From positions 1 to 60,037 of IMG/VR virus record IMGVR_UViG_3300023178_004792: a stretch of DNA of 60,037 bases; one strand, 5' to 3'. Shown here in pieces: positions 3,432-42,838 of the stretch (the first letter of the stretch is position 1; each line of letters begins with the position of its first letter). The DNA is from a virus. The translations under genes and the position numbers were made by a program. The notes beneath the pieces were generated by a model. It was not told the DNA's origin. It saw only the letters and a program-made list of their open reading frames with translations, and made no database searches.

Positions 3432-3845
3432 ATGAAGGAAATCCTCACAGCGATGATAATATGGTTGGGAGCCAACACCAACCTTGACACCAACCATGAC
3501 GTGCCGTTGGTGATATTCCTGCCACAGGACCAGCTCAACCACATGTACTACAAGGACTCCGCACACGACGGCAATAAACTGCATGGGCTCTATGACCGCG
3601 ACAAGGACACGATTTTCCTGCCAGACACCTGGGACAGGCGCCGGCCATGGGACCTGGGAGTGTTGCTACACGAGATGATGCACTACCTACAGGACCAGAA
3701 CGAGATCAAGTTCAGTTGCGTACAGGAGATGGAGCGTGACGTGTGGCCCACACAGCGTAAGTACCTACAAGAGGTTCATGACTACGAGTGGGAGTATGAC
3801 GAACTGTGGTACTGGATGGTCAGCAACTGTCCTAGTATGATCTAA
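3432..3845 (+). CDS. Small HExxH metalloprotease-like protein (DUF6647-like)
   Basis: This 137-residue protein carries HEMMH at residues 80-84, the zinc-binding helix of zincin peptidases, after LGVLLH. The region before it (LPDTWDRRRPWDLG) looks like the short zincin-like proteins grouped as DUF6647. No signal peptide is seen, so it probably acts in the cytoplasm. A TAAATA box lies 7 bases before the ATG. It is one of few plus-strand genes here and its stop codon overlaps the stop of the opposing AlgH gene by four bases. Protease activity is inferred from the motif only; the third metal ligand is not certain. Confidence 0.7.
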   Translation: MKEILTAMIIWLGANTNLDTNHDVPLVIFLPQDQLNHMYYKDSAHDGNKLHGLYDRDKDTIFLPDTWDRRRPWDLGVLLHEMMHYLQDQNEIKFSCVQEMERDVWPTQRKYLQEVHDYEWEYDELWYWMVSNCPSMI

Positions 3846-4420
3846 ACCTTGAAAATTTTGGAAGTGATCTCGGATGTTTTATTCATGACCGCACGATTCA
3901 CGCAGGTCTCCCAGAGATCATCTGGTTTGCTTGAAAATACCAATTCCTGATCATAATCTAATGTAAGCCAGCTCATGGTCTTGGGCCTAGGTGGCTGTGG
4001 GTCCAGTTCCGCCTCCAGTTGTCCGGCCTCCCAGTTGGCCATGCCCAGCATGATCAATCGCTTTTCAGGTCCACCGCCCTGTGCTATCATCTCCAGCATC
4101 TTGCGGTCCAGCGTGTATGCCAGTTCGTCCTGCTTCCTGGATTGGCTACTGCCCAACTGCACGTCCTTGGTGTGTAACACTCCTATGATATTGGTCAGCA
4201 CGGGTCCACCGTAGTACACAGGATTATTGTATCCGGACATCAAATTAATTCCACCCTCGGAACACACGTGCTTGAAGTCTGGGTGTTTGCAGATCTTGTT
4301 TATGATGACACCCGCCGCGCCTGAAACGTCGTGCCTCCACATGTAAACAACCGACTTGGCGAAACGCCAGTCAGGCATGTTGGGTGGTGCCACCAGCAGT
4401 TTGCCCTGTGTGTCCGTCAT
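3842..4420 (-). CDS. AlgH/YqgE family (UPF0301, DUF179) protein
   Basis: The 192-residue protein has the AlgH signature: an N-terminal LLVAPPNMPD, then SVVYMWRHD..GAAGVIINK and YYGGPV, matching in order the family's conserved blocks. Length is typical. The family's biochemical role is not settled; it was first linked to alginate regulation in Pseudomonas. The start codon shares ATGA with the stop of the upstream kdsA, so the two are probably translationally coupled. Its presence in a phage is unusual. Confidence 0.85.
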   Translation of the reverse strand: MTDTQGKLLVAPPNMPDWRFAKSVVYMWRHDVSGAAGVIINKICKHPDFKHVCSEGGINLMSGYNNPVYYGGPVLTNIIGVLHTKDVQLGSSQSRKQDELAYTLDRKMLEMIAQGGGPEKRLIMLGMANWEAGQLEAELDPQPPRPKTMSWLTLDYDQELVFSSKPDDLWETCVNRAVMNKTSEITSKIFKV

Positions 4421-5217
4421 ACACTTTTACTTATAGCGTCGAACTTCTTTAATTTTATGAGTAGATCTTTGAGGTCGTCCAGGTGCACGTTGTTGGGACC
4501 GTCCGACGCCGCGTTGTCGGGATCGTCATGCACCTCCATGAACACGCCCGCCACACCCACGGCCACCGCCGCCGATGCTATCACTGGTATGTGTTCTCTG
4601 TTGCCACCTGATGATGTGCCCTGTCCTCCCGGCTGTTGGCAACTGTGTGTGGCGTCTATAACGACTGGGTATCCTGTCTTCTTCATCTCGTGTAGGCCAC
4701 GCATGTCGGACACCAGTGTGTTGTATCCAAAACTGGTTCCACGATCACACAACCACAGTTTGTCGTTGCCGGTTGATGCCACCTTCTCTGCGACATTTCG
4801 CATGTCCCAGGGCGCCAGGAACTGACCCTTCTTGATGTTGATGTACTTGCCGGTCTCGCCCGCCGCAAGTAGTAGGTCGGTCTGCCTGCACAGGAACGCT
4901 GGTATCTGTAGTGCGTCCACGTGTGGTGCCACAAGAGCGGCCTGTTGTTCCGTGTGTATGTCAGTTATGATCTTTAGGTCGGGCATCTCCGCCTTGAGCT
5001 TGTCGAATATCTCCATGCCACGTGCCAAACCCGCACCACGTTTTCCCGTCAGTGATGTCCTGTTGGCCTTGTCAAAACTGCTCTTGTAGAAGAATTCAAT
5101 TCCGCAGTAGTCTGCGATCTTCTTGATCTCACGTGCCATTTTGAATGCGTGTTGTTCTGATTCTATCTGGCAGGGTCCTGCGATCAGGAAGAATGGTTGG
5201 TCATTGCCTATGTTCAT
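4417..5217 (-). CDS. kdsA: 3-deoxy-8-phosphooctulonate synthase (KDO-8-P synthase)
   Basis: KdsA condenses phosphoenolpyruvate with arabinose 5-phosphate to give KDO-8-phosphate, the precursor of the LPS inner-core sugar Kdo. The 266-residue protein is full length. It shows IAGPCQIES near the N-terminus, KSSFDKANR, CDRGTSFGYN, DATHSCQ and FMEVHDDPDNAASDGPN. Cysteine in GPCQIE, the histidine of ATHSCQ, and the Glu and Asp near the C-terminus are the metal ligands of metal-dependent (class II) enzymes, where class I enzymes have Asn for Cys. A TAATTA box lies 5 bases before the ATG and no Shine-Dalgarno is seen. A phage copy could support changes to host LPS during infection. Confidence 0.93.
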   Translation of the reverse strand: MNIGNDQPFFLIAGPCQIESEQHAFKMAREIKKIADYCGIEFFYKSSFDKANRTSLTGKRGAGLARGMEIFDKLKAEMPDLKIITDIHTEQQAALVAPHVDALQIPAFLCRQTDLLLAAGETGKYINIKKGQFLAPWDMRNVAEKVASTGNDKLWLCDRGTSFGYNTLVSDMRGLHEMKKTGYPVVIDATHSCQQPGGQGTSSGGNREHIPVIASAAVAVGVAGVFMEVHDDPDNAASDGPNNVHLDDLKDLLIKLKKFDAISKSV

Positions 5218-8444: not shown

Positions 8445-8462
8445 GTTACAGTTATGTTAAAC
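8445..8462 (-). promoter_or_regulatory. PHO-box-like site upstream of pstS
   Basis: Read on the minus strand the 18 bases are GTTTAACATAACTGTAAC. The second half matches the PHO box repeat CTGTAAC exactly and the first half matches weakly, about 14 of 18 bases against CTGTCATAWAWCTGTAAC. It lies 78-95 bases before the pstS start and overlaps the end of thyX. A PhoB-type host regulator could use it to induce pstS under phosphate starvation. Confidence 0.6.
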
Positions 8463-9110
8463 TTTTTTTAAAGGATGATTGTCTGATAAGTGTAACCAGC
8501 AGTAGGGAAAGGCTTCGTCGGCCAATTTCCAGATCTGGTCTGCCACGTCACGTGTTTCTTTCTGTGTGTCAGGTTTACAACGCAGGTTGCACACCCTTGC
8601 GAAAGCATATACACTGCCTGACCATATCCATTCTGTCATCATCGACTGAGGTAGCACCATACGTGCCTGTTCGGGTGCCACGCCTTTTACCAACAGGCTG
8701 TTGTAAAGTATAAGGCAACTCTCCATCGTGGTCTGTAGGTTGTGTTCTGTTGTCCGATCAAGTTTCACTTCACCGTCTGATCCCTGTTTGCTGTTCACAG
8801 GTCTACCACGCCAGGCATCTGGGTTGTACAGTTCTGGGTCATAGTCCACGTATCGCCTTGACACCTCGTTCCATACCAGTCCCACTTGGTGTTTGACCAA
8901 TTGCCTTGCTACAAAGATGGGTGCCTTGATCCTGAACTGCATGAATGCGTGTGCGAAAGGAGACCAATGTTCGTGTTCTGCTAGGTATTTGATTAAACGT
9001 TCATCCTGCACAGTAAACGCTTTGCTCTCTTTGGAATAACTTACCCTTGCCGCATTGATTACAGTAAGGTCATCGCCCATCTTGTCTATTAAGGTCACTT
9101 CCATACACAA
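8457..9110 (-). CDS. thyX: Flavin-dependent thymidylate synthase ThyX
   Basis: ThyX makes dTMP from dUMP with methylene-tetrahydrofolate and FAD, feeding phage DNA synthesis. The 217-residue protein has AARVSYSKES near the N-terminus, EHWSPFAH, the ThyX signature in the form RQxxKHxxG followed by NEVSRRY, and LPQSMMTEW. Length is usual for the family. It starts six bases after the end of the BtuB-like gene, so it may be read through from the riboswitch-controlled transcript. An internal ATG two codons downstream (MEVTLID) is an alternative start. Confidence 0.93.
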   Translation of the reverse strand: MCMEVTLIDKMGDDLTVINAARVSYSKESKAFTVQDERLIKYLAEHEHWSPFAHAFMQFRIKAPIFVARQLVKHQVGLVWNEVSRRYVDYDPELYNPDAWRGRPVNSKQGSDGEVKLDRTTEHNLQTTMESCLILYNSLLVKGVAPEQARMVLPQSMMTEWIWSGSVYAFARVCNLRCKPDTQKETRDVADQIWKLADEAFPYCWLHLSDNHPLKKV

Positions 9111-9116
9111 ATTATA

Positions 9117-10724
9117 CTAGAAAGATTTGTTAAATCCTAGTGTAAACTTCCTGCCTTCCTGGCTGAAACCATGCGGAGACTCGTAGTCTTCGTCTAACAA
9201 GTTCAGTAAACTAATACCAAAATCTATTCCATGGTAATTGTATCCTATGTTGAGGTCAAGCAAGTGTGTCTCAGGCATGGATATTGTTGACCAGTTGGAA
9301 TTGTGTACATCAAGGTGTTTGCCCTTGTACTTGTAATTGGTAGTCAAAGAGAAGTTATTTTCAAAGTCATAGTTGTGCATGAAGCCGAGATTCCAATTGG
9401 GTCGTCTCAACTGTACGACATCTTTTTTCTTGCTGTTTAGATGGCTCGCGAAAACTTTGAAATCCTTCTGTCCATAACTGAACTCTATGCCATCCGTGGT
9501 CAGGTCACTGATGTCGTTTTTGAATATCGTGGTTGCAAAGTTATTTTTTGTGAGAGTTAACTCTTGTGACTCACCGTATTCTATTGCTGTCCAGGTGGTC
9601 TTGTCTTTGTAACTGGTTGATGTGCTACCACTTAGGCTTAAACCTTCGTCCAATTCTTTGAAGAACCCCAACTTGTATGTTTCGTGTTCTTCGTCAAATC
9701 TGTGATGATATGAAAATATATTATAAGATAGGTTGTAGAAGTATCCTAGATTATGATGCTGTCCGGCTAGGGACTCGTTGTGTTTGTAGTCAAATCCAAA
9801 TCCAAACTTCTCGTATTGTTGTGTTCCCCTTATAGTATAGTTCTCACTCTCATAATGAGAATCATCATAGTCTCTGTCGTACTCGTGTGTATGGAACGTC
9901 AAACTGGAATTTTTGTAATCCAGTCCTGTCTGTAAGGCATAGAAAGTGTTGTCTGCCCATTTGCCGTCTTGTATAGAAACATTGTGCCCATCTAAGTCTG
10001 TGAATGTGTTCCTTGCGAACCAAGATGTTCTCCAATGCACTAGGTCATACCATTTGCTGACATTGACACCTATGGTCTTGTTGTCCACGCCATCCTTTTC
10101 ATCTGCGCCTGACAGGGCAGAAACATTTTCTGATTTGTGTTGTCCTGCTGATACAGAGATGTCAAAGTCATTTAAACTGGTGTAGTAGTTTCCGCTGATT
10201 GTTTGATCGTTGCCATTGCCTGCCAGACTTAACTTTTTATCATAGTCAACCGTGGTCCTGAAGTTTATAGCACCACCAACTGCGTCTGCACCCCAATGGG
10301 CACCTGCGGAACCTTTGTACACATCAATCTGCATGACATTAAACATGAAGTCCTGTCCGACATCGTGAGCACCTGTGGGTGTGGAGTAATCGTTTATTGG
10401 TATGCCGTTCAACAAAACAAGTGTGTGGTTGGAATTAGTCCCCCTCATGAACACGGAACCCTGTTGTCCCGTTGGACCAGACTGCGTTATGTCTAATCCT
10501 TGCACATAGTTCAACACCTTAGGTAAGTCTATGAGATTGTATTTTTGTATTTCTGATTTAGTTATTGTGCTTGTAGGTGTAATCTTATCGCCTAACGCAT
10601 TTGAATTATTTGTATACTTTGGATATATTGTTGTGCAAGGAATCTTGTTGTCCCACTTACAATCATCAGCATATGCCACACCCGTGAACATAAGCAATAC
10701 GAAAAACATTATATATTTTGTCAT
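9117..10724 (-). CDS. TonB-dependent outer-membrane receptor, BtuB-like (cobalamin uptake)
   Basis: The 535-residue protein begins with a signal peptide (likely cut after AYA near residue 19). A plug domain follows, with VLNYVQGLDI, FMRGTNSNH and VLLNGIPIND, then GADAVGGAINF. The rest is beta-barrel with many aromatic-ended strands, ending in a terminal Phe as outer-membrane proteins do. It is shorter than E. coli BtuB (about 614). A cobalamin riboswitch lies directly upstream, so vitamin B12 or a corrinoid is the likely ligand. It would rely on host TonB-ExbBD; no obvious TonB box was recognised. It could also serve as a decoy or superinfection-exclusion receptor. Confidence 0.88.
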   Translation of the reverse strand: MTKYIMFFVLLMFTGVAYADDCKWDNKIPCTTIYPKYTNNSNALGDKITPTSTITKSEIQKYNLIDLPKVLNYVQGLDITQSGPTGQQGSVFMRGTNSNHTLVLLNGIPINDYSTPTGAHDVGQDFMFNVMQIDVYKGSAGAHWGADAVGGAINFRTTVDYDKKLSLAGNGNDQTISGNYYTSLNDFDISVSAGQHKSENVSALSGADEKDGVDNKTIGVNVSKWYDLVHWRTSWFARNTFTDLDGHNVSIQDGKWADNTFYALQTGLDYKNSSLTFHTHEYDRDYDDSHYESENYTIRGTQQYEKFGFGFDYKHNESLAGQHHNLGYFYNLSYNIFSYHHRFDEEHETYKLGFFKELDEGLSLSGSTSTSYKDKTTWTAIEYGESQELTLTKNNFATTIFKNDISDLTTDGIEFSYGQKDFKVFASHLNSKKKDVVQLRRPNWNLGFMHNYDFENNFSLTTNYKYKGKHLDVHNSNWSTISMPETHLLDLNIGYNYHGIDFGISLLNLLDEDYESPHGFSQEGRKFTLGFNKSF

Positions 10725-10754
10725 AACAGTAGCCTTTCATTAACGCCACTGTTA
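10724..10754 (-). promoter_or_regulatory. Hairpin enclosing the ribosome binding site of the BtuB-like gene
   Basis: On the minus strand TAACAGT (10754-10748) is complementary to ACTGTTA (10730-10724). The loop between them holds GAAAGG, the likely Shine-Dalgarno, and the stem reaches the A of the start codon. This is a natural expression platform: when the hairpin forms the ribosome site is hidden. It follows the cobalamin aptamer directly, so ligand binding probably favours this closed form. Confidence 0.65.
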
Positions 10755-10767
10755 ATTTTTAATTGTA

Positions 10768-10884
10768 GAACTAGACTTTCCCAGGCCCTCGCTCGACAGC
10801 GGACTATACTGGTTGGCACTCCGACTTTACGGTTCCTGGTAGAGCCATGGAATTACACCTTGATTCCCCAACACGATTCAGTAT
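10768..10884 (-). ncRNA. Cobalamin riboswitch aptamer
   Basis: Read on the minus strand the leader contains the ordered core elements of the cobalamin aptamer: GGGGAATC, AAGGTGTAATTCC, GGCTCTACCAGG, CCGTAAAGTCGGAGTGCC and GCCTGGGAAAG. These match the E. coli btuB leader blocks GGGAATC, GTGCGAATC, GGTAAGG, TGCC and GGGAAG in order and spacing. The domain looks compact, as in class II cobalamin riboswitches; that subtype is inference. It lies between a promoter at 10920-10894 and the receptor start, with a ribosome-site hairpin next to the start. Ends are approximate. Confidence 0.88.
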
Positions 10885-10893
10885 TGCTATTAT

Positions 10894-10920
10894 TTTATAA
10901 CACTATCTTGGTAATGTCAA
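10894..10920 (-). promoter_or_regulatory. Host-type promoter for the riboswitch/BtuB-like transcript
   Basis: TTGACA at 10920-10915 and TATAAA at 10899-10894 on the minus strand are separated by 15 bases (16-17 if the -10 is read one or two bases downstream). It lies just after the end of the SufT-like gene and just before the cobalamin aptamer. Confidence 0.65.
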
Positions 10921-10929: not shown

Positions 10930-11328
10930 TTATAGTCCCATCAGTTCACGAACCTCAGGATTTATCATGTCACGACCCCACTGTGGTTGCATGGTTATTT
11001 TGACTTTACATTTTAGATTTGGTATGCTCTCAACTTTCTGTTGTACATCTCTCGGAATCATGTCAGCGGCAGGACAGAATGCACTTGTAAGACTCATTAG
11101 CACATGAACCCATCCATCTTCTGTTACCTTAACATCATATATCAAACCTAAATTATAAATGTCGACACTGATCTCTGGATCATAACATTCTTTTAGTTTC
11201 TCAACTATCTTGGGCATGTACTCTGATTGTGTTGGTGGATGCTCTTTTATGTCAGACAGATCAGTCTTCAGTTGTGGATCTACTGATGCGTTTGGTTGTG
11301 GAGTCCATCCTGGCGGCATATCCATCAT
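10930..11328 (-). CDS. MIP18/DUF59 family protein (SufT-like, Fe-S assembly)
   Basis: I place the start at 11328, giving 132 residues, because that ATG shares ATGA with the stop of sufE; an upstream in-frame ATG at 11457 would lie inside sufE. The C-terminal 100 residues are a DUF59 domain: YDPEISVDIYNLGLIYDV, then LTSAFCPAADMIP with the conserved cysteine. DUF59 proteins such as SufT help mature iron-sulfur proteins. The N-terminal 35 residues, with Pro-rich MPPGWTPQP, are a linker of unknown use. It ends the redox/Fe-S operon that starts with rubrerythrin. Confidence 0.85.
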   Translation of the reverse strand: MMDMPPGWTPQPNASVDPQLKTDLSDIKEHPPTQSEYMPKIVEKLKECYDPEISVDIYNLGLIYDVKVTEDGWVHVLMSLTSAFCPAADMIPRDVQQKVESIPNLKCKVKITMQPQWGRDMINPEVRELMGL

Positions 11329-11723
11329 TGTGCTATCCTTATTATCCTGTTGATCAATTCTCCCAGTCCATTTTGTCGTTGCATGGTCAGTAGTTCCTTG
11401 ATGCCAAGCCCAGTGAAGTTTTCCACTGTGAGATTTGCGACCTCGCTCCTGTGGCAACCGTTCACGATGTCCGTGACAACTTTTGCCGTGCCCTTTGTGA
11501 TGAATGCGTCTCCGTCCACTTGGTACTGCATGTTGTTGTCAGCATCGGCGCCACCTATGATCCATAACTTGCTGGCACAACCGTGTATGCGATTCTCCTC
11601 GGTCTTGGCCGATTCCGGCAGTGGCTCAACGTCCTTGGCCTTGTCCACGAGGTACTGCAAACGATCGTGTCCCTCCAGCATGGCCAGGTTCTCGCCCATT
11701 TCTTTTATCCTATCAATTATCAT
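11325..11723 (-). CDS. sufE: SufE cysteine-desulfurase activator
   Basis: SufE accepts persulfide sulfur from SufS on a conserved cysteine and passes it to the SufBCD scaffold. The 132-residue protein has RLQYLVDKAK, the active-site block RIHGCASKLW, DGDAFITKG, and a C-terminal helix typical of the family. Gene order is tight: it overlaps the preceding 63-residue gene by 11 bases and the next gene by ATGA. No SufS or SufBCD is in the window, so it would work with host proteins. Confidence 0.9.
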   Translation of the reverse strand: MIIDRIKEMGENLAMLEGHDRLQYLVDKAKDVEPLPESAKTEENRIHGCASKLWIIGGADADNNMQYQVDGDAFITKGTAKVVTDIVNGCHRSEVANLTVENFTGLGIKELLTMQRQNGLGELINRIIRIAQ

Positions 11724-12237: not shown

Positions 12238-12435
12238 TTAGAAGTACTTCTTAAGCATCTCGATCTCGTCATCGTACTCGGCGATGATCTTGAGCTCCTT
12301 CTCTATGGTCTCCAACGTGTCAGGGTGCTCAGCAACTCCCACGGCCTTCTCCAACAGTATCTCTACGTTGGCCTTGTGTTTGTTGATGTGCCCCTCCGCG
12401 TGAGAGATAAGAGCTTCTTTGATTTCTGCTTTCAT
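12238..12435 (-). CDS. Small helical hypothetical protein (65 aa)
   Basis: A 65-residue acidic, helix-rich protein (ALISHAEGHINKHKANVEI, IEKELKIIAEYDDEIEML). I do not recognise a family. Its start codon overlaps the rubrerythrin stop as TAATG and its stop abuts the fdxA start, so it is translationally coupled inside the redox operon. His and Glu residues on one face might bind metal, but this is not shown. Confidence 0.65.
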   Translation of the reverse strand: MKAEIKEALISHAEGHINKHKANVEILLEKAVGVAEHPDTLETIEKELKIIAEYDDEIEMLKKYF

Positions 12436-12857
12436 TATGCTCCTTTGTAGGCGTCCAGCGTTCTCTGGAATTTGCCTGCGTGTGACTTCTCAGCCTTGGC
12501 GAGTGTCTCGAACCAGTCGGCTATCTCGTCGAAGCCTTCTTCTCTGGCAGTTCTTGCCATGCCTGGGTACATGTCGGTGTACTCGTGCGTCTCACCTGCT
12601 ATGGCAGATTTTAGGTTTGTTTCGGTGTCACCTATAGGTTCACCTGTTGCTGGATCACCCACTTCCTCTAGGTACTCTAGATGTCCGTGTGCGTGTCCTG
12701 TTTCACCTTCCGCTGTTGACCTGAACACAGTTGCCACCTCATTGGCGCCTTCTATGTCGGCCTTCTGTGCGAAGTACAGGTATCTCCTGTTTGCTTGTGA
12801 CTCGCCCGCGAACGCATCTTTGAGGTTCTGGGCCGTTTTACTTTCTTTTAGTTCCAT
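12435..12857 (-). CDS. Rubrerythrin (diiron domain only)
   Basis: The 140-residue four-helix ferritin-like protein has two ExxH metal motifs, EGETGH and AEKSH, with the partner glutamates in [10 protein letters not shown] and [10 protein letters not shown]. Rubrerythrins reduce hydrogen peroxide at a diiron site. The usual C-terminal rubredoxin domain is missing, as in sulerythrin-like short forms, so an outside electron donor such as the FdxA two genes downstream is likely. It is the first gene behind a strong host-type promoter (12915-12887) and has GGAGATCCATATG as ribosome site and start. Confidence 0.92.
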
Positions 12858-12886: not shown

Positions 12887-12915
12887 ATTGTACACTATTT
12901 TTTCCATTAAGTCAA
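12887..12915 (-). promoter_or_regulatory. Host-type promoter for the rubrerythrin/Fe-S operon
   Basis: TTGACT at 12915-12910 and TACAAT at 12892-12887 on the minus strand, 17 bases apart. It overlaps the last codons of the upstream PLP-fold gene and is 30 bases before the rubrerythrin start. Confidence 0.72.
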
Positions 12916-13905
12916 ATACCCCTTGTCTCTCATATACCTTGTGATCAACTCATCGTTTTCATAAAATGGTATGAGATTTAATAGTTTGCTGTCTGGAATC
13001 CTCTGTTCATGAAGGCTCTGTCCCTCGAGAAAATGGCCTTTTGGAATTTCCGCTATCATGACCATGTCGTGAACTGGCAGGTCCAATATACCACACCATT
13101 TTTTTTGCAGTGGTTTTACACTATCTCTGACGTGCCAGTACCCTTTATCATGGAGGTACTGCAGACTGACGTGGTAGCCAACCTTGTTACCGAGTGGATA
13201 GAGGTCGTAGTGTTCAGGAACTGGCCTTCTGTGCAAACAAAAACCGCCCTTGATCCCGCTCAATGGCAAAACTTTTGTCATGCTATGGCTAACCAATTCC
13301 ACGCAATCTGTGTGTTCAAGTTTTTTTACATTGTTGATCAGAGGCATCCATATCAGGTCCAGCATCACCGGAATGCCATTTTCGCAACAGTGCTTCAGAA
13401 TTTGATCCATGTCATGATGGTATGTGAAGTTTTCAAAGTAAGGCAACGACATGATCAACAAATCATTGCTGTGCATCTGTTCTAAGGAGTCGATGTGTGT
13501 ATCTATTATGTTTTTGAAATACCAAAAATCGTTTTTGAATATTACTGGCCTGCGTGAACTGTGTCTGTTCATGAATTCTAGAGCGGTGTGGACAGTGGTC
13601 GAAAGCGGCTGGCAAACAAATTCTTTGTAATGCAATCCTATATCAGGTAAATGTGACATGTCTAATTTTTCATTACTTTGGTTTACTTTGAAAAGATCTA
13701 GGTCAAGTCCTGACAGCCAGCCTGTCATCTCTTCGCTTTGCAGGGCACGGAGACCCAATTGGATGCCACTTGCTCGAGAATGCAAATGATCAATCCTGCC
13801 ACTTCTTGGACGCTGGTAAGTCATGCCACCTCTCTTGGCAGAATTAGACAGTTCTGATCTTGCCATCAACCATTTTAATTCAAAAAAAATTTCTTTATCC
13901 AACAT
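12907..13905 (-). CDS. PLP-dependent aminotransferase-fold protein, divergent
   Basis: The 332-residue protein looks like a class I/II aminotransferase. It has DLLIMSLPY, GIPVMLDLIW (D183 in the place of the pyridine-nitrogen Asp), then HSMTKVLPLSGIKGG, where K211 fits the Schiff-base lysine and the following Gly-rich turn fits the phosphate loop. The N-terminal third is not typical. It overlaps by 11 bases the end of a radical SAM relative that lacks the cluster motif. The pair suggests a joint modification pathway, but the substrate is unknown and the protein may be inactive or a binding protein. Confidence 0.62.
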   Translation of the reverse strand: MLDKEIFFELKWLMARSELSNSAKRGGMTYQRPRSGRIDHLHSRASGIQLGLRALQSEEMTGWLSGLDLDLFKVNQSNEKLDMSHLPDIGLHYKEFVCQPLSTTVHTALEFMNRHSSRRPVIFKNDFWYFKNIIDTHIDSLEQMHSNDLLIMSLPYFENFTYHHDMDQILKHCCENGIPVMLDLIWMPLINNVKKLEHTDCVELVSHSMTKVLPLSGIKGGFCLHRRPVPEHYDLYPLGNKVGYHVSLQYLHDKGYWHVRDSVKPLQKKWCGILDLPVHDMVMIAEIPKGHFLEGQSLHEQRIPDSKLLNLIPFYENDELITRYMRDKGYLT

Positions 13906-14557
13906 ACTTAGATATCTCGTTGTTGATCATTGTTAGTTCATGAAAATTTTTCCAGTGTAGTTTTTTGAACACTTCTGACCATTGTGGGAAAACGTCTGTG
14001 ATTTCTGTGCCATGCAACCTATCGAGATCGTTTATCACGTTTACGCAGTCTAAATTGATGTCATTGTCTAACAAACTTTTGTAATTGTCAGGAACAAATT
14101 TATGCAACTGATATGGCATATTAGATACTGTCAATATTTCAGGTTTCAACAATATGTCTATAGACATTTCATATTTGTTTGTGGCACACCATTGTTCCAG
14201 TTCTTTGATTGAAAACACAGAAAACACATGGAGTTTGGATGCAATTTTGAAATTCACACCATTCGCATCGAACATCTTCAAATTTTCTTCCACCAAAGGC
14301 CAACTCAGTCCTGGACGCAGGTATTCTTGTGCCGCTCCAATACCGTCAAGGCTTACTTCTAGTTGTAGATTAGGGGTAGACTTACAGAATTCTATAATTT
14401 CTCGATCACACCTGGTGCCGTTTGTTACAAGTTTACCTATTGAAGACCTTGGGTGTTTGAATATGTGCCTCCTAAAGAAAGGTTCAACTGTGACGTGCCC
14501 ACCAATTCTGTACTGCCATCTGTATGGACAGTTGTCATTGACTAGCGTTTGGTTCAT
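13895..14557 (-). CDS. Radical SAM-like protein lacking the CxxxCxxC cluster motif
   Basis: The 220-residue protein aligns with the C-terminal two thirds of the twitch-domain radical SAM proteins in this window: VEPFF (25-28) where others have GGEPF, LVTNGT (43-48), SLDGIG (69-74), EYLRPG (78-83), and a C-terminal half with FVPDNYKSLL. The N-terminal 100-plus residues with CxxxCxxC are absent, and the glutaredoxin gene fills the space upstream, so no lost exon is nearby. It is either a decaying paralog or a non-catalytic partner. The ATGA overlap with glutaredoxin and the intact frame argue for a working gene. Confidence 0.72.
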   Translation of the reverse strand: MNQTLVNDNCPYRWQYRIGGHVTVEPFFRRHIFKHPRSSIGKLVTNGTRCDREIIEFCKSTPNLQLEVSLDGIGAAQEYLRPGLSWPLVEENLKMFDANGVNFKIASKLHVFSVFSIKELEQWCATNKYEMSIDILLKPEILTVSNMPYQLHKFVPDNYKSLLDNDINLDCVNVINDLDRLHGTEITDVFPQWSEVFKKLHWKNFHELTMINNEISKYVG

Positions 14558-14982: not shown

Positions 14983-15336
14983 CTAGTTACCTAGCCTATC
15001 CAATAATTTTCTAATCTTTGGAATTCGTCTCGTGCCTATTCCGTGTAGGCAAGTCTTGTAGTAGATCTTCATGAACCAGTTATTTGTGTGGGAAAGTTTT
15101 AGTGAGTAATTGTAGAAGTCATGTATTGCTTTTTGGCAGTCGATAACTTCCAAGTTGTTTTCCTCAGCCAACAAAGGATCCTCACTCAATCTCAGCAACA
15201 CTGTATTGAACCTTTGAAGGGCCTTGTCTAAAGTACCAAAATATATGTCATAATTTCCAGGAAGTCTATCTAAGATGAACTGTTGTATTGGTCTGTTATC
15301 TAGCACAAACTGTTTATGGTCTACTATTTGGATCAT
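14983..15336 (-). CDS. Hypothetical protein in the clpS operon (117 aa)
   Basis: A mostly helical 117-residue protein with DIYFGTLDKALQRFNTVLLRL and a basic C-terminus RRIPKIRKLLDRL. No family recognised and no membrane segment. The start is coupled to clpS by an ATGA overlap. Confidence 0.65.
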   Translation of the reverse strand: MIQIVDHKQFVLDNRPIQQFILDRLPGNYDIYFGTLDKALQRFNTVLLRLSEDPLLAEENNLEVIDCQKAIHDFYNYSLKLSHTNNWFMKIYYKTCLHGIGTRRIPKIRKLLDRLGN

Positions 15337-15635
15337 TGTTTCTTGACTTTAACTTGTAATGGAAAATTTTCCTGTCTTGCCGCAAGTGTGGCCTCAATGC
15401 CTTTCTGCTCTGCGACTTCGTGTGTGTATGAACCCACAATGCCTTGTCCGTCTTGGTGGATCCTCCGGGTGATGCTTTGTGCCTGTTCTGGGGTCTTGCC
15501 GAATATTTGTTTCAGCACCTTGATAACAAATTCCATAGTGGTTATGTTGTCGTTTAGGAATATCACGTCGTACAAGCCGGGCTCGTCTAATTTGATCTTT
15601 TCTTTGGTTAATGTGTTAATGTCTGTTGCCATCAT
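15333..15635 (-). CDS. clpS: ClpS adaptor protein
   Basis: ClpS brings N-degron substrates to ClpAP in bacteria. The 100-residue protein keeps the ligand-pocket block LNDNITTMEFVI and the later IHQDGQGIVGSYTHEVAEQK. Family length is normal. An unfolded N-terminal extension of about 20 residues is also typical. MMATD allows a start one codon later. The gene lies directly behind a good host-type promoter. With ClpX, Hsp20 and tmRNA in the same window it points to phage control over proteolysis. No ClpA or ClpP is seen, so host Clp subunits would be the partners. Confidence 0.92.
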   Translation of the reverse strand: MMATDINTLTKEKIKLDEPGLYDVIFLNDNITTMEFVIKVLKQIFGKTPEQAQSITRRIHQDGQGIVGSYTHEVAEQKGIEATLAARQENFPLQVKVKKQ

Positions 15636-15643
15636 AGTTCCTT

Positions 15644-15671
15644 ATTGTAGCATAATTCTGTAGTTTGTCAA
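15644..15671 (-). promoter_or_regulatory. Host-type promoter for the clpS operon
   Basis: TTGACA at 15671-15666 and TACAAT at 15649-15644 on the minus strand, 16 bases apart, with an extended TGC before the -10 box. It is 9 bases from the clpS start, so the leader is very short. Confidence 0.72.
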
Positions 15672-15699
15672 TGGAGGGGTGTTTTACCACCCCATCCAT
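15671..15699 (-). terminator. Strong hairpin after hsp20
   Basis: On the minus strand GGGGTG and CACCCC flank a GTAAAA loop, extended outward by ATGGA and TCCAT with one bulged base, an 11-pair stem. There is no clean T run, so termination strength is uncertain; the hairpin ends where the clpS promoter begins and could separate the hsp20 and clpS units. Confidence 0.55.
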
Positions 15700-15718
15700 C
15701 TTGATTAAGGACAAGTGC

Positions 15719-16177
15719 TTACTTGATCTCGATAGTTCTTGGTGCTTTACCTTCTGGAATGATTCTTTCCATAGATACCTTAAGCAAACCATCTTTCAGT
15801 TCAGCGCCTTTGACTTCCACATCATCAGCAATAGTGAATGATTTCGAGAACCATCTCTTGCTGATACCTCTGTGTAAGATGTCACCGTTCTCGTCTTTGT
15901 CTTCAGACTTCTCGTCTTTCTGCTTTGACTTCACGTGCAACATATTGTCTTCGTACTGTACTTCGATGTCATCTTTACCAAATCCTGCCAATGCAAGTTC
16001 GATGTCGTATGTGTTCTTTCCAGTCTTGACTATGTTGTACGGTGGGAAGTTTGACATTGTAGGCGATCTGAAGAAATTGTCCTCATCGAACATTCTCTCG
16101 AAGTGATCGAACACGTTGTCAAATCCAACGGTTACTGGTCTTAATTGATTAAAAATAGATAGATGTTTGTTTGTCAT
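15719..16177 (-). CDS. Small heat-shock protein Hsp20 (IbpA-like)
   Basis: The start at 16177 (MTNKHLS) has AAGGAGGGC at the right distance; a TTG further upstream would include the Shine-Dalgarno. The 152-residue protein has an alpha-crystallin domain with YDIELALAGF, LHVKSKQK, and RGISKRWFSKSF, and ends with IEI, the IxI motif for oligomer contacts. Hsp20 holds unfolding proteins without ATP. T4-like marine phages are known to carry hsp20 genes. Confidence 0.93.
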   Translation of the reverse strand: MTNKHLSIFNQLRPVTVGFDNVFDHFERMFDEDNFFRSPTMSNFPPYNIVKTGKNTYDIELALAGFGKDDIEVQYEDNMLHVKSKQKDEKSEDKDENGDILHRGISKRWFSKSFTIADDVEVKGAELKDGLLKVSMERIIPEGKAPRTIEIK

Positions 16178-16244
16178 TTTAGTGCCCTCCTTATTAAGCA
16201 AGTTATATTGAAGATCCTATCTATAGCAATCTTCAACTGTATTT

Positions 16245-16272
16245 ATTATAACATATAATGGCTATATGTCAA
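16245..16272 (-). promoter_or_regulatory. Host-type promoter for hsp20
   Basis: TTGACA at 16272-16267 and TATAAT at 16250-16245 on the minus strand, 16 bases apart, 68 bases before the hsp20 start codon. Confidence 0.75.
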
Positions 16273-16293
16273 ATTGCGACCTTTTTTGGTAAA

Positions 16294-16572
16294 CTATCTG
16301 CCCCTGCCCCTTTGCACACCCATAAAGATGTTGCTGTCTCTCTCACGTTGAAGTTTCCTGAGCGTCTTGGCCCTCTGTTTCCTCTTCTCACGTTTTATGG
16401 CGCTGGGTTTTGTGAACACTGATCTGTCTCTGATTTGTTCTATGAAACGGTCTTCCTTGATCCATCTCTTGATCTTCCTGTATGATCTAATGGCGTCACC
16501 TCCTGGAGGTACTTCCACGTAGTAGCCTTGGAATCCCAATGGTCTGTTATTTGTTCTGTTGTTTCTTCGCAT
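16294..16572 (-). CDS. rpsU: Ribosomal protein bS21-like
   Basis: The 92-residue basic protein matches bS21 in order: VEVPPGGDAIRSYRKIKRWI, then a conserved FIEQIRDRSVFTKPSAIKRE and a Lys/Arg-rich tail (KRKQRAKTLRKLQRER). bS21 sits near the anti-Shine-Dalgarno end of 16S rRNA and affects initiation. Phage copies are known, including in pelagiphages, and may bias ribosomes to phage messages. That fits the unusual leader structure of many genes here. The start lies inside the 3' end of clpX (26-base overlap). Confidence 0.85.
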   Translation of the reverse strand: MRRNNRTNNRPLGFQGYYVEVPPGGDAIRSYRKIKRWIKEDRFIEQIRDRSVFTKPSAIKREKRKQRAKTLRKLQRERDSNIFMGVQRGRGR

Positions 16573-17794
16573 CCGTCTTTTTAAATACTAACACAGGGTC
16601 AGCGCCATTGTCAACCACGTCGCCGTTTATTTGTATTCTTGTCACACCGTTGCGCCTCATTTCAGCGGCATCAAACTGATATGGTAAAACAACATTGTCA
16701 ACAATGTTTTTCAATCCCCTTGCATTCGTGCCCAGTGCTTTTGCTTTTTTGGCTATACTGATCTTGGCATCTTTGGTAAATTCAATTGTTATGTCATCAA
16801 GTCCAAAAAGATACTGAGTTTGCTTTAAAATAGCATTTTTTGGTTCAGTTAGAATCTTTACCAATTGTTCTTCAGACAGTTTATCAACATGGGTCAGCAT
16901 GGAGAATCTACCAACAAACTCAGGAATTAATCCATACTTGATAAGGTCCTCGGGTTTGACTTCCGAGAGATAATTTTTCACTTCCTTGTCTAACAATAGT
17001 GTATTGAAACCCATTCCACCGCCGTCTCTTTTGCGTATCTGGTTTTCTAGTTCCGTGAACGCACCACCAACAATGAATAATATGTTTGACGTATCTATCC
17101 TCACGGTCTGTTGATCAGGGTGTTTCCTTCCTCCATGTGGCGGAACTCTACATTCTGTGCCTTCCACTATTTTTAATAGTCCCTGCTGTACTCCTTCGCC
17201 TGACACGTCTCTGGTTATAGATGTACTCTCGCCTTTCCTACATATCTTGTCGATCTCGTCTATGAATATTATGCCCTTCTCTGTTTTCTCTAGGTCACCC
17301 TCTGCATTTGCATATAATTTTTGCACAACATTTTCAACATCATCCCCAACGTAACCTGATTCCGTCAATGTGGTAGCATCAGCAATAGCAAACGGCACGT
17401 CCAGGTATCTGGCTATAGTCTTCGCCATCAGTGTTTTTCCTGCACCCGTGGCCCCGAGAATCATCACGTTTGATTTGTCTAGGTCGAAGTCAATGGGCGG
17501 CTGTACAATCCTCTTGTAATGATTTGCTACTGCAACAGCGAGAACGGTCTTGGCGTAGTCTTGCCCAATGACATATCTGTCCAGTTCTTCCTTGATTGTT
17601 ACAGGGTTAAGAATGCTTTTATCACCTGCGTACAGTTTCTCCTTACGAGACTTGACAGTGTCCTCCTCGAGTATCTCCACACAGAGTTTGACACACTCAT
17701 TACAAATGGATGTCTTTTGGGCACCCACTATCATTTTTGTGACGTCTTTCCGAGACTTGTTGCAGAAGGAACAGTTGTTGTACTCTTCCGCCAT
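16547..17794 (-). CDS. clpX: ClpX ATP-dependent unfoldase
   Basis: The 415-residue protein is full length. It has an N-terminal zinc finger (C8, C11, C31, C34), Walker A GATGAGKT at 114-121, the pore loop GYVG at 147-150, Walker B IIFIDEID at 175-182, and the RKH loop at 223-225. The ClpP-docking loop reads MGF (261-263) where cellular ClpX has IGF, a mild change. ClpX unfolds substrates such as SsrA-tagged proteins into ClpP. No clpP is seen, so it may join host ClpP or act alone. It overlaps the upstream gene by TAATG. Confidence 0.95.
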
Positions 17795-23490: not shown

Positions 23491-25053
23491 CTAATGGAAA
23501 TCTAAAACATCTTCTAGATCACTGATGTCATCAATACTGATTTTGTTTGAATTTAAATTTTTCATAATGTTATATAGTATGGTCAACTCTTCACGGCTCC
23601 TTGTTTGTGGCCAACCTAGGTCAACCGAAAGTTCATGTAGTTCTAATCTGCGCCTGATCCTTTCTCTCAGTGTCAGTTGTGGGTTCTGTGCATTCACCCA
23701 ACCCAGTCCTAATGCTATGTCTCTCAGTCCCTGTGGCAAATTTTTGAACTTTTTTTCAAAGTCTGGGTCAACCACCATCTCCACATCACCCGGCTTTTCG
23801 ACTTTCTTTGCATCTCGGAACATTCCTGTGTATCCCCATCGCACCATGTGTATTGAACCCGACCTTGCATACTTCCGGAACCTGTGTAGGAATTCTTTGT
23901 TATACTCGTGATCATCTTCTGTCTCTATTGGATAACCAACGAACATCAATGCAACATTTTTGATACCATAATATGCACTCTGTTCAAAATGAAATGCTAT
24001 ATCTTCGTTTGAATAATTTTTTCCCATGTGTTTTCTAACCCTTTCGCTGTAACTTTCAAATCCTGTAACCAGTAGGTTAGCACCGGCCTCATGCATAAGT
24101 TTCCAATCGGTGTCGGGTTGTTCATTCTGTGTCCTGCATATAAACTGTCCCATATACTTCAATGGCCTAAACTTTTCATCTTTTCTCAGTTCTCCAAGTC
24201 GTTGATTTAGTTCGCGAAAGTGTTTCATACTGCCATTGACAAGACTGTCTGTAAAGTGTGTGAGGTTAACCTGATATTCTATCTTGTTCTTCTTGATTTC
24301 ATCTACAAGTTTCTCTGCACTTCTTATACTGAACTTTGGCCAAAGATCAGGAACATTACAGAAAGTGCATCTTCTGACACAGCCTTTTGACATTGTCATG
24401 TACACTCCAGGCTCGTCGGTGTAATAGTATTTCATTGGTTCGATTGAGGCATATGACGGCAATGGCACCGCATCGAGATCCTTGACCATTACTGGCGGAA
24501 GTCCATCTATGCCAGGATAACGATTGCCCTGCAGAAGTTCTTTGATCGTGTCTTCTCCGTCTCCCACAATGTAGTGATCTATAAATTTTTCTTCTTTGAG
24601 GTAGTCTGCTATTGTTTTGTATTTTGTATTCTCATCAACGTTAGGCAAACTGCCCGGCCATGCTCCTATACCATGCCCACCTATCATCACGGTGGCGTTT
24701 ATCCTAGGTCTAAGGTATTTCAACAATTCAAAGCAAGACACTGTGCTGAATCTCGAAAACACACTGATACCTATCCAGTCTGGATCATACTCTTTGACTT
24801 CAATCAGAAACTCTGCTAGAGTGCTTTGTAACTGTTGTCGTGTCTGTTCCGTGATTGTGTCTATCTTGCATCTCCAATATTCTTCTAGTTCACTCCACGC
24901 CGCACTGTCCACTTTGCTATTTAGATAAAGATTGAAATCAAAAATTTTACAGTCCCAACCGATCGATCTAATTATACTGCTTAACAATGCCGCGGCCGCA
25001 GGTGGCCTTTCTAGTTCCTGACTTGGTATGTTGATGAATGCAAACTTTTTCAT
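23491..25053 (-). CDS. B12-binding-domain radical SAM protein
   Basis: The 520-residue protein has a Rossmann-type cobalamin-binding-like N-terminal domain (PDWIGISVFSRF, TVMIGGHGIGAWPG, YIVGDGEDTI) followed by the radical SAM domain with CVRRCTFC (C225, C229, C232). This is the layout of class B (B12-dependent) radical SAM methylases and related enzymes. The classic DxHxxG cobalamin loop is not obvious, so B12 use is not certain. It is coupled by ATGA to the preceding 188-residue gene. The riboswitch-controlled B12 receptor in the window fits a cobalamin need. Substrate unknown. Confidence 0.87.
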   Translation of the reverse strand: MKKFAFINIPSQELERPPAAAALLSSIIRSIGWDCKIFDFNLYLNSKVDSAAWSELEEYWRCKIDTITEQTRQQLQSTLAEFLIEVKEYDPDWIGISVFSRFSTVSCFELLKYLRPRINATVMIGGHGIGAWPGSLPNVDENTKYKTIADYLKEEKFIDHYIVGDGEDTIKELLQGNRYPGIDGLPPVMVKDLDAVPLPSYASIEPMKYYYTDEPGVYMTMSKGCVRRCTFCNVPDLWPKFSIRSAEKLVDEIKKNKIEYQVNLTHFTDSLVNGSMKHFRELNQRLGELRKDEKFRPLKYMGQFICRTQNEQPDTDWKLMHEAGANLLVTGFESYSERVRKHMGKNYSNEDIAFHFEQSAYYGIKNVALMFVGYPIETEDDHEYNKEFLHRFRKYARSGSIHMVRWGYTGMFRDAKKVEKPGDVEMVVDPDFEKKFKNLPQGLRDIALGLGWVNAQNPQLTLRERIRRRLELHELSVDLGWPQTRSREELTILYNIMKNLNSNKISIDDISDLEDVLDFH

Positions 25054-25616
25054 ATAAGTTCCTTTATTTTTGTAACCACGTCCTCACATGTATCGAGACT
25101 GCCTCTGAATTTATGGATCCTGTCAGGATCCCTGTCCAAGAATTTTATTACCTCTTTGTCTTGTTTGATGCGAAAGTACCAATCCCAAAAATCATTTTCA
25201 AACTCCATGAATGTGAAAGTGCCTGGAAAATGCCATATTAATTGGCTTTTTATCTCAGAATCCAGTGGTTGGTTCTTCCTGGCATCTTTGTGTTGTTGCA
25301 CGAACCCTTTGAAATATCTTGGTGCGTAGATTCCTTCTGTCATAAACCAGTTTTCGATCTGTATGCCATCCACACGTATGTTCAACAACTCAAAGGTTTG
25401 ATCCTGAGTGATCTTGCCATTTTGCACAACGGTGTGTTTCTCCGTCTTGTTGATCCAGTCCAGTTTCAGCACATTTTTATCTTGTGGTTTCACACTCCAC
25501 GTAAATTTGTCTTTGTCACATTCGATGTTTTCAATCAGCGTGTCGTTGTGCAATAGATTCAACTTTGGCCAATCTAAACTGCAAGTCGCTTTGTAGGTGA
25601 ATTCAAATTCTATCAT
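25050..25616 (-). CDS. Hypothetical protein between two radical SAM genes (188 aa)
   Basis: The start at 25616 shares ATGA with the stop of the upstream radical SAM gene; an ATG five codons earlier lies inside it. The N-terminal half looks beta-rich (MIEFEFTYKATCSL, FTWSVKPQDKN) and the C-terminal half aromatic and helical (WHFPGTFTFMEFENDFWDWYF). No family recognised. Being ATGA-coupled on both sides to radical SAM enzymes, it is a candidate substrate, carrier or partner of the modification. Confidence 0.7.
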   Translation of the reverse strand: MIEFEFTYKATCSLDWPKLNLLHNDTLIENIECDKDKFTWSVKPQDKNVLKLDWINKTEKHTVVQNGKITQDQTFELLNIRVDGIQIENWFMTEGIYAPRYFKGFVQQHKDARKNQPLDSEIKSQLIWHFPGTFTFMEFENDFWDWYFRIKQDKEVIKFLDRDPDRIHKFRGSLDTCEDVVTKIKELI

Positions 25617-26680
25617 AGGTATGGCTTCCATTCCGGCATAAAACTTTTTATGTCCGTATTCCAGTATTTGTCAAGCTCTTTTAGGAATACCTTGTAATCG
25701 TCAACCGCGTCCTCTGTCACAAACTTCTGGTAGCCTTGTGGCACTTGCAGTTTCAATTCACCAGGTAGGTTCCGTGGATGCAGTTGCTTAGGATCATAAA
25801 CTATGTGCTTCTGTGGATTATGGATCTTTCTCTCTGCACACCAATTGTCCAACTTATCTAAGTGCAACACATTCAGTAACGATATGGTCGACTGCACTAG
25901 CACATTGATACCATAGTCTCTGAATTTCTGGATGTTTGATTCCACAAGAGAAAAGTCACACCCTGGCCTGATGTATTCGTGCACCTTGCCTATGCCGTCC
26001 AGACTTATGATTAACACAACTTCCTTGAAACTTTTCAGCAGTTCAACTAATTTGTTGTTGTAGAACATTCCGTTTGACGTGATATACATGGTCATTTTTT
26101 GAGAATAATTGTTGTCCATCAACCATTTCAACAGGTCCAATAATTTTTTATTATAGAAGGGCTCGCCGCCTACCACGTCAATATATCTAATTGTGTTGGC
26201 GTGTTGCTTCAGCATCGCTTCGGCGTCTTGGTCATACTTGTAAGGCGAAAGTGTGTCCCAACCTATACTCCTGTACACAGCATTCACTCTGGAACTGACG
26301 TTTGTCACACACATCCTGCAGGCGAGATTACACAGTGCTCCAACTTTAATCTTTATTTCAATTGGTGTGAGTTTTTCATCCGGCAGTTCTAAAAGTTCTT
26401 TGTGTTGTTCTAATCGCGAGTTGTTCGCGTTCTGCCTTATGGATGTCTTGCCCTTGCTCTCCATTTCGAAGCATTTCCAACACCCTTTGGGTTGCTTGTT
26501 ATTTCGGAAATCTTCACGTAGATCTTTGAGTTCCTTGCTATCCCAGTAACTCTTGAAATCAAAAATTGGTTCCTGCTGTTGTTGGTACATGCAACAAGGT
26601 CCGGCGGGCAGACCTTCGTCGTATGGATTGCGGTCCATACTGATGAATGGCAATATACAAATATTTTTCCTATTAGTCAT
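25613..26680 (-). CDS. Radical SAM protein with twitch/SPASM-like region
   Basis: I prefer the start MTNRKNICILPF at 26680; an in-frame ATG at 26731 is also possible. It has paired cysteines near the N-terminus (GPCCMY), CWKC, then CNLACRMC (CxxxCxxC), VGGEPFYN, SLDGIG and EYIRPG. The extra N-terminal cysteines could hold an auxiliary cluster. It is the first gene of an ATGA-coupled trio with a 188-residue protein and a B12-type radical SAM enzyme. Substrate unknown. Confidence 0.88.
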   Translation of the reverse strand: MTNRKNICILPFISMDRNPYDEGLPAGPCCMYQQQQEPIFDFKSYWDSKELKDLREDFRNNKQPKGCWKCFEMESKGKTSIRQNANNSRLEQHKELLELPDEKLTPIEIKIKVGALCNLACRMCVTNVSSRVNAVYRSIGWDTLSPYKYDQDAEAMLKQHANTIRYIDVVGGEPFYNKKLLDLLKWLMDNNYSQKMTMYITSNGMFYNNKLVELLKSFKEVVLIISLDGIGKVHEYIRPGCDFSLVESNIQKFRDYGINVLVQSTISLLNVLHLDKLDNWCAERKIHNPQKHIVYDPKQLHPRNLPGELKLQVPQGYQKFVTEDAVDDYKVFLKELDKYWNTDIKSFMPEWKPYL

Positions 26681-26820
26681 AACTTCTTGTAATGGCTTGT
26701 GGTGATACCACTTACGGCCTGGCCCACGCATTTAAGACATAGAGGTCAGTGTATATGCCGACGTCACTGTATTGTGGCGTTGCGGCAATATTTATTTCTT
26801 GTGTAAATGGTTCAAAAAAA

Positions 26821-32047: not shown

Positions 32048-32090
32048 AATTTAGCACAAGATTGACAAACTGTCAAGCCTATGCTTAAAT
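32048..32090. promoter_or_regulatory. Back-to-back promoters sharing a palindromic -35 region
   Basis: The palindrome TTGACA-AAC-TGTCAA at 32062-32076 supplies a -35 box for each strand. The minus promoter pairs TTGACA (32076-32071) with TAAATT (32053-32048), 17 bases apart, facing the small-gene chain. The plus promoter pairs TTGACA (32062-32067) with TTAAAT (32085-32090), also 17 bases apart and with an extended TG, facing the tmRNA. Confidence 0.65.
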
Positions 32091-32096
32091 AGAAGT

Positions 32097-32404
32097 AAGT
32101 TTGCTGACTGATAATCAATAAACGGGCAAGACAGGAGTTCGACTCTCCTCACCTCCACCAACTTATTACTTGGTGGCTTATGTAATCCCTTTCGGGGGTG
32201 TACTGGTATCGATTGACGTCTAAACTTGTCACGAGAACTTGGTGATGGCACTGACCTATACAGGCCGTTTTTAAATGCAAACAAAAAAGCATTAGGGTTT
32301 GCTGACCTAACAGTCGGTATGCCTGCATTGAGATTAGCGGCGTAATAACTGTCTGATTTCGGGGTTTGGCCCACCTGGCAACAGAACGGGCCATAAAGGG
32401 ATCT
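32097..32404 (+). ncRNA. ssrA: Circularly permuted two-piece tmRNA
   Basis: The 3' (acceptor) piece comes first and ends CACCTCC-A-CCA at 32160, after a T arm AGGAG-TTCGACT-CTCCT. The 5' piece begins GGGGGTG at 32194, which pairs with CACCTCC in a 7-pair acceptor stem with one G-U. The 33 bases between (32161-32193) would be removed. The tag frame starts GCA AAC at 32277, the same first two codons as E. coli, and ends GCG GCG TAA TAA at 32348. It encodes 22 residues, ANKKALGFADL then TVGMPALRLAA. A GGCCC/GGGCC stem lies downstream. Outer ends are approximate. tmRNA frees stalled ribosomes and tags the peptide for ClpX, which this phage also encodes. Confidence 0.9.
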
Positions 32405-32614
32405 ATGTGGAAAATCATGATGGTGCTGTGTGTACTGAACAATGGTGTGCCTGAGTGCACCACCTACTATGAGACTAACAAGCGGACATTCGCAACCGAA
32501 GAACTCTGCCTCGAGGGTGCCGCGACCAAGTTTGACGAAGTTTACAATGGATTTAACAAAATGAACATACCCTACACACGTATAGAAATAGGCTGTGAGC
32601 AGAAAAAAGATTAA
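32405..32614 (+). CDS. Small hypothetical protein after the tmRNA (69 aa)
   Basis: Start MWKIMMVLCVLNNG at 32405, preceded by AAAGGGATCT. A short hydrophobic N-terminus is followed by CTTYYETNKRTFATEELC and IGCEQKKD, with four cysteines. No family recognised. Its stop overlaps the opposing gene's stop by four bases. Confidence 0.62.
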   Translation: MWKIMMVLCVLNNGVPECTTYYETNKRTFATEELCLEGAATKFDEVYNGFNKMNIPYTRIEIGCEQKKD

Positions 32615-41550: not shown

Positions 41551-42838
41551 CCTAAAAAACTATCTATCGATTTTTCAAGACCAGGGAGCAAGTTTCTCCA
41601 GGTGATCCCGGCACGATGTTTGTCTTGTAGGTCGTTGTATTTGATGAAACTCTGTAAGGTCTCTTTTTTGAATGGCATTGACTTGTCGTTGCTTTCGTGT
41701 AAAGATTTAATATGCGATTCAATTTGTTTTTTGTTGTCAACTTTATCCACTTTATGTAGTGAATCTTGTAGTTTTTTTGCCACGGACTTCTTGTACTCGT
41801 CAGGCAAAACAGAATAGTCACAGATCCGAGGCCCAGTCACTACACCGGTCCACCATACATCCACCGCAATATCATGTTGCTTTTCGAACTGTTCCACGTA
41901 ATGCACTGTGTCAACCACGCTGTGTATGTTAAGCGACTAAAGGTTGGTCCTATGGTCATCCTGCACCTGTCATTAGTTTTCATAATGTCAGCGTAGAACT
42001 TCAAAGACCTTTCAATAACTGGCCATTTTGAAGGGTAGCGGATGTAGTCATTGACATCTCCTATTCCGTCCACACTACCATAAATGCCCATCATTTTAAC
42101 TTTCTTCAGCCAAGTGATCATTTTTGGATTGGTGTTGGTCAGATTAGTCGTCAAGGTGACTGTCTTTTTTTGTAGAGTGTCTTTTTGAAAACAAAATTCC
42201 AACAATTCATAGAACTCCTTGATTGCAGTTGGCTCGCCGCCAACAACATTGAGGTCACTGACATTATCACTTACGTAGTTGAAGATGTCATTCTTTGTTT
42301 TTGGGTTTTTGAACCAGTCATAAACTATTCCCAATTCAGATGTCCAGTTGTTCACCACACCACCTTGCTTCTTGAGCCATTCAACAAATCCGGGCTCTTT
42401 GTCGCCTATCTTTAATAACTCTTCTCCTATCTTGTGACTGTATTGCTGGCTACACATCTTGCAGGCAAGGTTACAAACATTTCCAAAGTGTAGTTCTAGT
42501 TGTTCTATTTTGTTATTGACTTTGCCATCCACTGTGATTGCATTGTAATGTTCGTAGTCTTTCACGTTTCTCATGCTTTTGATACCTCTGTCCTCGAGGT
42601 CATAGCACCTCTTACAGATATCTAGCCTTTCACCCGCCAGCATTTTCTTTCTGGTTTCTATCATGTAATTGCTGTTCCAACTGTCTGAAATTTTATCTTT
42701 TGACAGGTTGTATTGGTGATACCCGTCGTTCTTTGTGATGTGTTCCGGAGACAGGCAACACACCTTAAAGTGTCCTGTGGTCTGAACGTACAGATGCTTC
42801 CAAGGATAGTTACAAAAAGTTTTTGGTGTTTTAGACAT
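41547..42838 (-). pseudogene. Radical SAM protein split by a frameshift
   Basis: The first frame (42838-41840) has two cysteines CC near residue 27, CKRC, CNLACKMC (C122, C126, C129), VVGGEPTA and GSVDGIGDVNDYIRYP, then loses similarity after TIGPTFS. The second frame (41918-41547) continues the family's C-terminus with VVDTVHYVEQF and LLPGLEKS. The shift lies near 41935-41945, where AGT-CG-CTT lacks one base of a codon. No slippery heptamer is present, so I prefer a one-base indel or a sequencing error over programmed frameshifting. If restored the protein is about 430 residues. Confidence 0.78.

Follow-up and report, generated by a model that had tools for sequence, protein, structure and literature searches.

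Does a marine virus place an outer-membrane receptor of its own under the control of vitamin B12, and if so, what would the vitamin be for? Surface ocean waters hold little vitamin B12, and most microbes import it; a virus with its own B12-regulated receptor would turn uptake of the vitamin into a target of infection. The question is raised by a stretch of 60,037 bases, an entire IMG/VR virus record (hereafter the window), in which a preliminary description had placed a promoter, a cobalamin aptamer, a hairpin hiding the ribosome site and a BtuB-like receptor in order. All four elements were located as described, on the minus strand, where they follow one another as promoter, aptamer, P13/L13 hairpin, ribosome-site hairpin and TonB-dependent receptor. 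The arrangement is real and recurs in phages, and it puts a riboswitch of a known class into a biological setting that is new; what the switch and receptor are for is a matter of reasoned inference.

Riboswitch leader and receptor of the window

The leader is headed by a sigma-70-type promoter (10892–10920, minus strand; TTGACA-17-TAAAAT), which agrees with the consensus at 11 of 12 positions and recurs with the same hexamers and spacing in contig L034. Next comes an AdoCbl-II (class II cobalamin) riboswitch aptamer comprising P1–P6 (10806–10884, minus strand). The cobalamin riboswitch named in the preliminary description was checked with the RF01689 covariance model, which gave 82.9 bits (E 2.5e-19), far over the gathering threshold of 36.5 bits. 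The aptamer occurs as a single copy in the 60,037-base record and stands 5′ of a cobalamin-related gene, the BtuB-like receptor. At the sequence level, both the assignment of the leader to the AdoCbl-II riboswitches and the identity of the receptor are well supported.

The fold of the leader is supported by covariation, both in the P1–P6 junction and in the L5–L13 kissing loop. Across 64 leaders from phages and SAR11, pairing holds in 98.7% of cells and double changes occur at 13 of 31 pairs; none of 500 shuffles reaches either value, although related sequences can exceed shuffles anyway, and structures slid along the same leaders drop to 27–50% pairing. The 5′ side of the kissing loop is the L5 motif CCAG (10836–10839, minus strand). 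Its partner, L13 CUGG (10781–10784), caps the P13 expression-platform hairpin (10768–10794, minus strand), whose stem pairs in 100% of cells with double changes at one pair. One kissing-loop pair is U-A in 57 leaders and A-U in 7 phage leaders: SAR11 leaders combine CCUG with CAGG, whereas the seven phage leaders combine CCAG with CUGG, a swap that may be a single event. L5–L13 docking is the means by which cobalamin riboswitches of this kind repress translation (PMC10907184, PMC10653944).

A further hairpin (10724–10754, minus strand) covers the Shine-Dalgarno sequence AAAGG (10733–10737) and has the A of the ATG as its last base. Its folding energy of −14.7 kcal/mol (z −5.8) is matched by 0 of 200 shuffles. 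Other phage leaders with an identified start also have an arm that abuts or overlaps the start and is complementary to the left arm of the hairpin, and the hairpin is strong across phage leaders but patchy across SAR11 leaders. An anti-sequestering pairing of CCGCUGU with ACAGUGG, by which the ribosome site could be exposed, lacks covariation support, so that any exact switching step in the window design is hypothetical.

The receptor gene (9117–10724, minus strand) encodes a TonB-dependent protein of 535 aa with a Plug domain (PF07715, 2e-19). Its best NCBIfam models are vitamin-B12 receptors, and its scores (94.5 bits against a cut-off of 836, and 92.8 against 599.7) lie below the equivalog cut-offs, as do those of its SAR11 homologues. 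A profile built from 30 phage and SAR11 relatives matches BtuB at 240 bits, the next match being the colicin I receptor at 148 bits. The AlphaFold2 model (pLDDT 84) has a plug and barrel strands, and its 12 best PDB matches are all BtuB entries, with TM up to 0.85. The name BtuB-like is therefore upheld by profile, PDB sequence and predicted fold, short of a proven BtuB. The closest textbook parallel is the E. coli btuB leader with BtuB, in which a cobalamin riboswitch likewise precedes an outer-membrane B12 receptor of similar fold (model TM 0.85); however, E. coli BtuB is only about 20% identical in sequence to the window receptor, the E. coli system is not phage-borne, and its leader belongs to a different Rfam aptamer class. 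No TonB homologue (TonB_C PF03544, TIGR01352) was found in eight SAR11 genomes (G011–G018) or six phage records; the same SAR11 genomes encode TonB-dependent receptors without a PF03544 or TIGR01352 match.

Viral context and the SAR11 counterpart

Genes of phage type in the window include NrdA, NrdB, ThyX, an exonuclease, PAAR, tail-spike proteins and phrog_455, and one neighbouring protein is matched best by proteins of marine T4-like phages (HTVC008M, cyanomyoviruses and Melnitz). No terminase or capsid gene was identified in the window. Judged by its genes, the contig is viral and probably T4-like and marine, with a bacterial host. ThyX (8457–9110, minus strand) begins 6 bp past the receptor stop, and since the same order is found in L034 and L047, it may share the riboswitch-controlled transcript; co-transcription with the receptor is probable. 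L034 is an independent contig that has the SufT–receptor–ThyX order of the window and retains the same leader before a receptor 91% identical to the window's. The window also carries an unusual host-like gene set (3842–5217, 11325–11723, 12435–12857, 15333–17794 and 56701–57777), identified partly by domain search and partly by eye, with UPF0301-like, KdsA-like, SufE, rubrerythrin-like, ClpS-like, HSP20-like, ClpX-like AAA and amidinotransferase-like proteins.

The bacterial counterpart of the unit lies in SAR11. A pattern scan of 84,980 species genomes gave 63 matches, of which 62 are Pelagibacteraceae (SAR11) and one is a phage contig also present in the viral set (L054). The pattern, related to that of the viral scan but stricter, had been built on phage sequences and consensus sequences and would therefore overlook bacteria whose members are more divergent; scanning the genomes with a single protein sequence gave no bacterial relative. 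All SAR11 leaders followed by enough DNA precede long ORFs resembling secreted receptors, and with few exceptions these ORFs match the receptor family. The operon reads riboswitch–receptor–DUF6580, with DUF6580 encoded in 8 of 8 SAR11 genomes searched and adjoining the receptor in most of those inspected. Phage and SAR11 leaders are homologous, in an alignment that starts at P1, runs past P13 and reaches the left arm of the ribosome-site hairpin, and the nearer of the SAR11 receptor families is about 33–37% identical to the window's receptor. The differences are equally clear: the kissing-loop pair is swapped in phage leaders, the window receptor is about 90 aa shorter, and no DUF6580 follows it. 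Phage and SAR11 receptors also form separate supported clades, which, together with the 33–37% identity, gives the phage genes the look of long-established viral lineages, not of recent captures.

The homologous SAR11 leader and receptor are what would be expected if bacterial DNA had been misassembled into a phage, or packaged by one. This origin is highly improbable: the SufT–receptor–ThyX order recurs in the independent contig L034, the phage-only receptor clades are supported with a best SAR11 identity of 37%, the window and L034 have a GC content of 44% and two SAR11 loci one of 25–29%, and relatives are flanked by helicase, terminase, gp32, UvsX and tail genes. The earlier claim that the segment is viral thus stands on gene order, receptor clades and the phage genes around relatives.

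Under cobalamin riboswitches, B12-type receptors come together with DUF6580 (PF20221) in phage (L053, L052, L037) as well as in SAR11 (L079, L087, L094, L105, L109). A search for a BtuC-type permease found none clearly, with one marginal FecCD match over cut-off, so DUF6580 may be an inner-membrane cobalamin transporter; a search for a solved structural relative of DUF6580 returned none.

Recurrence in viral contigs and relation to env8

Close relatives of the receptor are encoded at 35 IMG/VR loci, and a pattern scan found AdoCbl-II-type riboswitches in 39 viral contigs; 21 riboswitch-bearing contigs scanned whole have one copy each. Among receptors about 85–87% identical to the window's, most follow an AdoCbl-II leader of another, compact design, and the four such leaders scanned score 71.7 to 77 bits. 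By sequence comparison, phage AdoCbl-II leaders before BtuB-like receptors are of two designs. Leaders like that of the window also stand before DUF6580 and a second receptor (L037, L046, L052, L053, L057), and T4-type helicase, gp32, UvsX or terminase genes lie near these riboswitch–DUF6580–receptor operons in the contigs tested. In L050, L054 and L062 a similar leader is present and the contig ends before the gene. Searches of a cultured-phage collection gave no match to the leader and, by tblastn with the receptor, distant matches only, none spanning more than about a third of it.

Twelve close relatives, about a third, have no riboswitch directly before the receptor, which implies that the switch is not essential. 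In these loci (L018, L019, L021–L024, L027–L030, L032 and L035) the receptors are 75–83% identical to the window's, and in several the promoter nearly touches the start codon, which suggests that the switch was lost and the transcript became nearly leaderless. Three of the contigs (G007–G009) contain no riboswitch anywhere.

The preliminary description calls riboswitches rare in phages, in keeping with the literature: a Riboswitch Scanner survey of pelagimyophages and cyanomyophages found none (PMC7029224), and a glutamine riboswitch accompanies the two-piece tmRNA of the phages Melnitz and Mosig (PMC9004378). For the present type the statement needs qualifying, as about 40 viral contigs carry it. 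T4-like marine phages have other structured regulatory RNAs too, such as the manA and wcaG RNAs of cyanophages (PMC2864571); like the glutamine riboswitch, these differ from the window leader in RNA class and target gene. RF01689 itself was first listed as "Marine" (PMC2864571), and no report of a phage cobalamin riboswitch was found in the open-licence literature. The window has a permuted two-piece tmRNA of alphaproteobacterial type (32058–32436, plus strand; tag ANKKALGFADLTVGMPALRLAA), with most neighbouring genes on the opposite strand; unlike in Melnitz, no glutamine riboswitch was called with it.

The compact design leads to a known RNA. The class-II riboswitch env8HyCbl (PDB 4FRN, 4FRG; "marine metagenome") shares the kissing-loop logic of the phage leaders, and its published sequence is probably that of the L014/L020 leader, which in L020 starts at base 9694 on the plus strand. 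In env8 the P13 hairpin carries the ribosome site in its loop, where L5 docks (PMC10907184), and the compact phage leaders (L002–L017, L020 and others) likewise have the ribosome site in the P13 loop. The residues named for env8 in published papers (A9, G12, U13, G19, A20, A68 and U69) are present at 7 of 7 positions in the commonest compact leaders and at 6 of 7 in three variants. The window leader differs, with a longer SAR11-like design, G at the A20 and A68 positions, a separate ribosome-site hairpin and L5 CCAG. On the seven named residues and this probable sequence identity, env8 is likely to be a phage RNA; if so, more than a decade of riboswitch biophysics already describes a viral regulator.

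Proposed regulation and use of the vitamin

The window leader quite probably acts as an OFF switch at the level of translation, governing a cobalamin importer of the phage that would mainly load radical-SAM enzymes of cobalamin type. Early in infection, host RNA polymerase would transcribe the leader from the sigma-70-type promoter. While cobalamin is low in the infected cell, the aptamer would stay undocked and the receptor, and probably ThyX, would be translated; the receptor would enter the outer membrane and raise B12 uptake. Once cobalamin, the presumed ligand, is bound, L5 would dock on L13, P13 would be stabilised and the ribosome-site hairpin would form, stopping synthesis. The vitamin would then load cobalamin-type radical-SAM enzymes, phage-encoded beside the receptor in most relatives; in many SAR11 such enzymes are encoded beside the equivalent host operon.

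The candidate consumer in the window is a radical-SAM protein (23491–25053, minus strand) 12.8 kb from the receptor. It matches PF04055 at 62 bits, and its CxxxCxxC motif (C225-x3-C229-x2-C232) is invariant in the alignment. The PF02310 B12-binding domain scores 20.7 bits, below the cut-off of 32.1, and the fold is closest to cobalamin-dependent radical-SAM enzymes (TsrM, MgmA, OxsB and CysS) but matches AprD4 as well. At 23 of the 26 phage loci where 1.5 kb or more follows the receptor, a gene like it lies within 0.7 kb of the receptor, and one more such gene occurs elsewhere in 510 kb; a radical-SAM gene of this kind is nearby at 25 of 49 SAR11 loci. The neighbourhood profile was built from eight of these proteins and so measures resemblance to them, not cobalamin binding. 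By comparison of coordinates, in 7 of 8 SAR11 genomes a B12-binding domain scoring above cut-off lies no more than about 5 kb from the operon. On sequence and fold prediction, the likeliest use of imported B12 is by the radical-SAM enzymes of B12-binding type beside the receptor, and these neighbouring genes give a testable reason for importing it.

Two other roles have to be weighed. Imported cobalamin might feed host enzymes such as methionine synthase and ribonucleotide reductase and so keep the host productive, as generic auxiliary-metabolic logic would have it; ThyX, a folate-linked enzyme, does follow the receptor in the window, L034 and L047. This use appears unlikely, since neither a Met_synt_B12 domain nor an over-cut-off NrdJ was found in the eight operon-carrying SAR11 genomes (mostly single-cell, possibly incomplete), and the window phage supplies its own class I NrdA and NrdB. 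NrdJ was also considered as a SAR11 user of B12; nothing exceeded the cut-off, and the 650-aa matches end in CLSCQ like class I enzymes. The argument draws on SAR11 genomes, and the real host of the window may differ from SAR11. Alternatively, the receptor might alter phage adsorption or exclude superinfecting phages and colicin-like agents, the riboswitch having merely come along with a captured gene. Phages are known to use E. coli BtuB as a receptor, tail-fibre genes adjoin several relatives (e.g. L018), and about a third of close relatives have no switch. Such a role is nevertheless quite unlikely: two riboswitch designs precede receptors 86% identical, which points to cobalamin control being kept or regained, the plug–barrel fold of the receptor is retained, and radical-SAM genes of B12-binding type adjoin it.

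Import under cobalamin control accordingly matches the earlier suggestion that the phage tunes host vitamin uptake, which is the reading best supported by sequence, now with radical-SAM enzymes of B12-binding type as likely consumers; remodelling of the outer membrane, also suggested, found no specific support. Since dozens of viral sequences share the unit, and it resembles the SAR11 one, viruses appear to manage host B12 during infection. More broadly, there is perhaps an even chance that widespread T4-like marine phages carry a self-contained B12-gated module (riboswitch, BtuB-like receptor and sometimes the DUF6580 inner-membrane protein) supplying phage cobalamin-dependent radical-SAM enzymes, with env8 among its RNAs.

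Further radical-SAM or radical-SAM-associated genes lie on the minus strand of the window at 12907–14557, 25613–26731, 41840–42838 and 52359–53492. Within the first of these, 13895–14557 is an apparent shortened copy of a gene of about 376 aa in L034 and L047.
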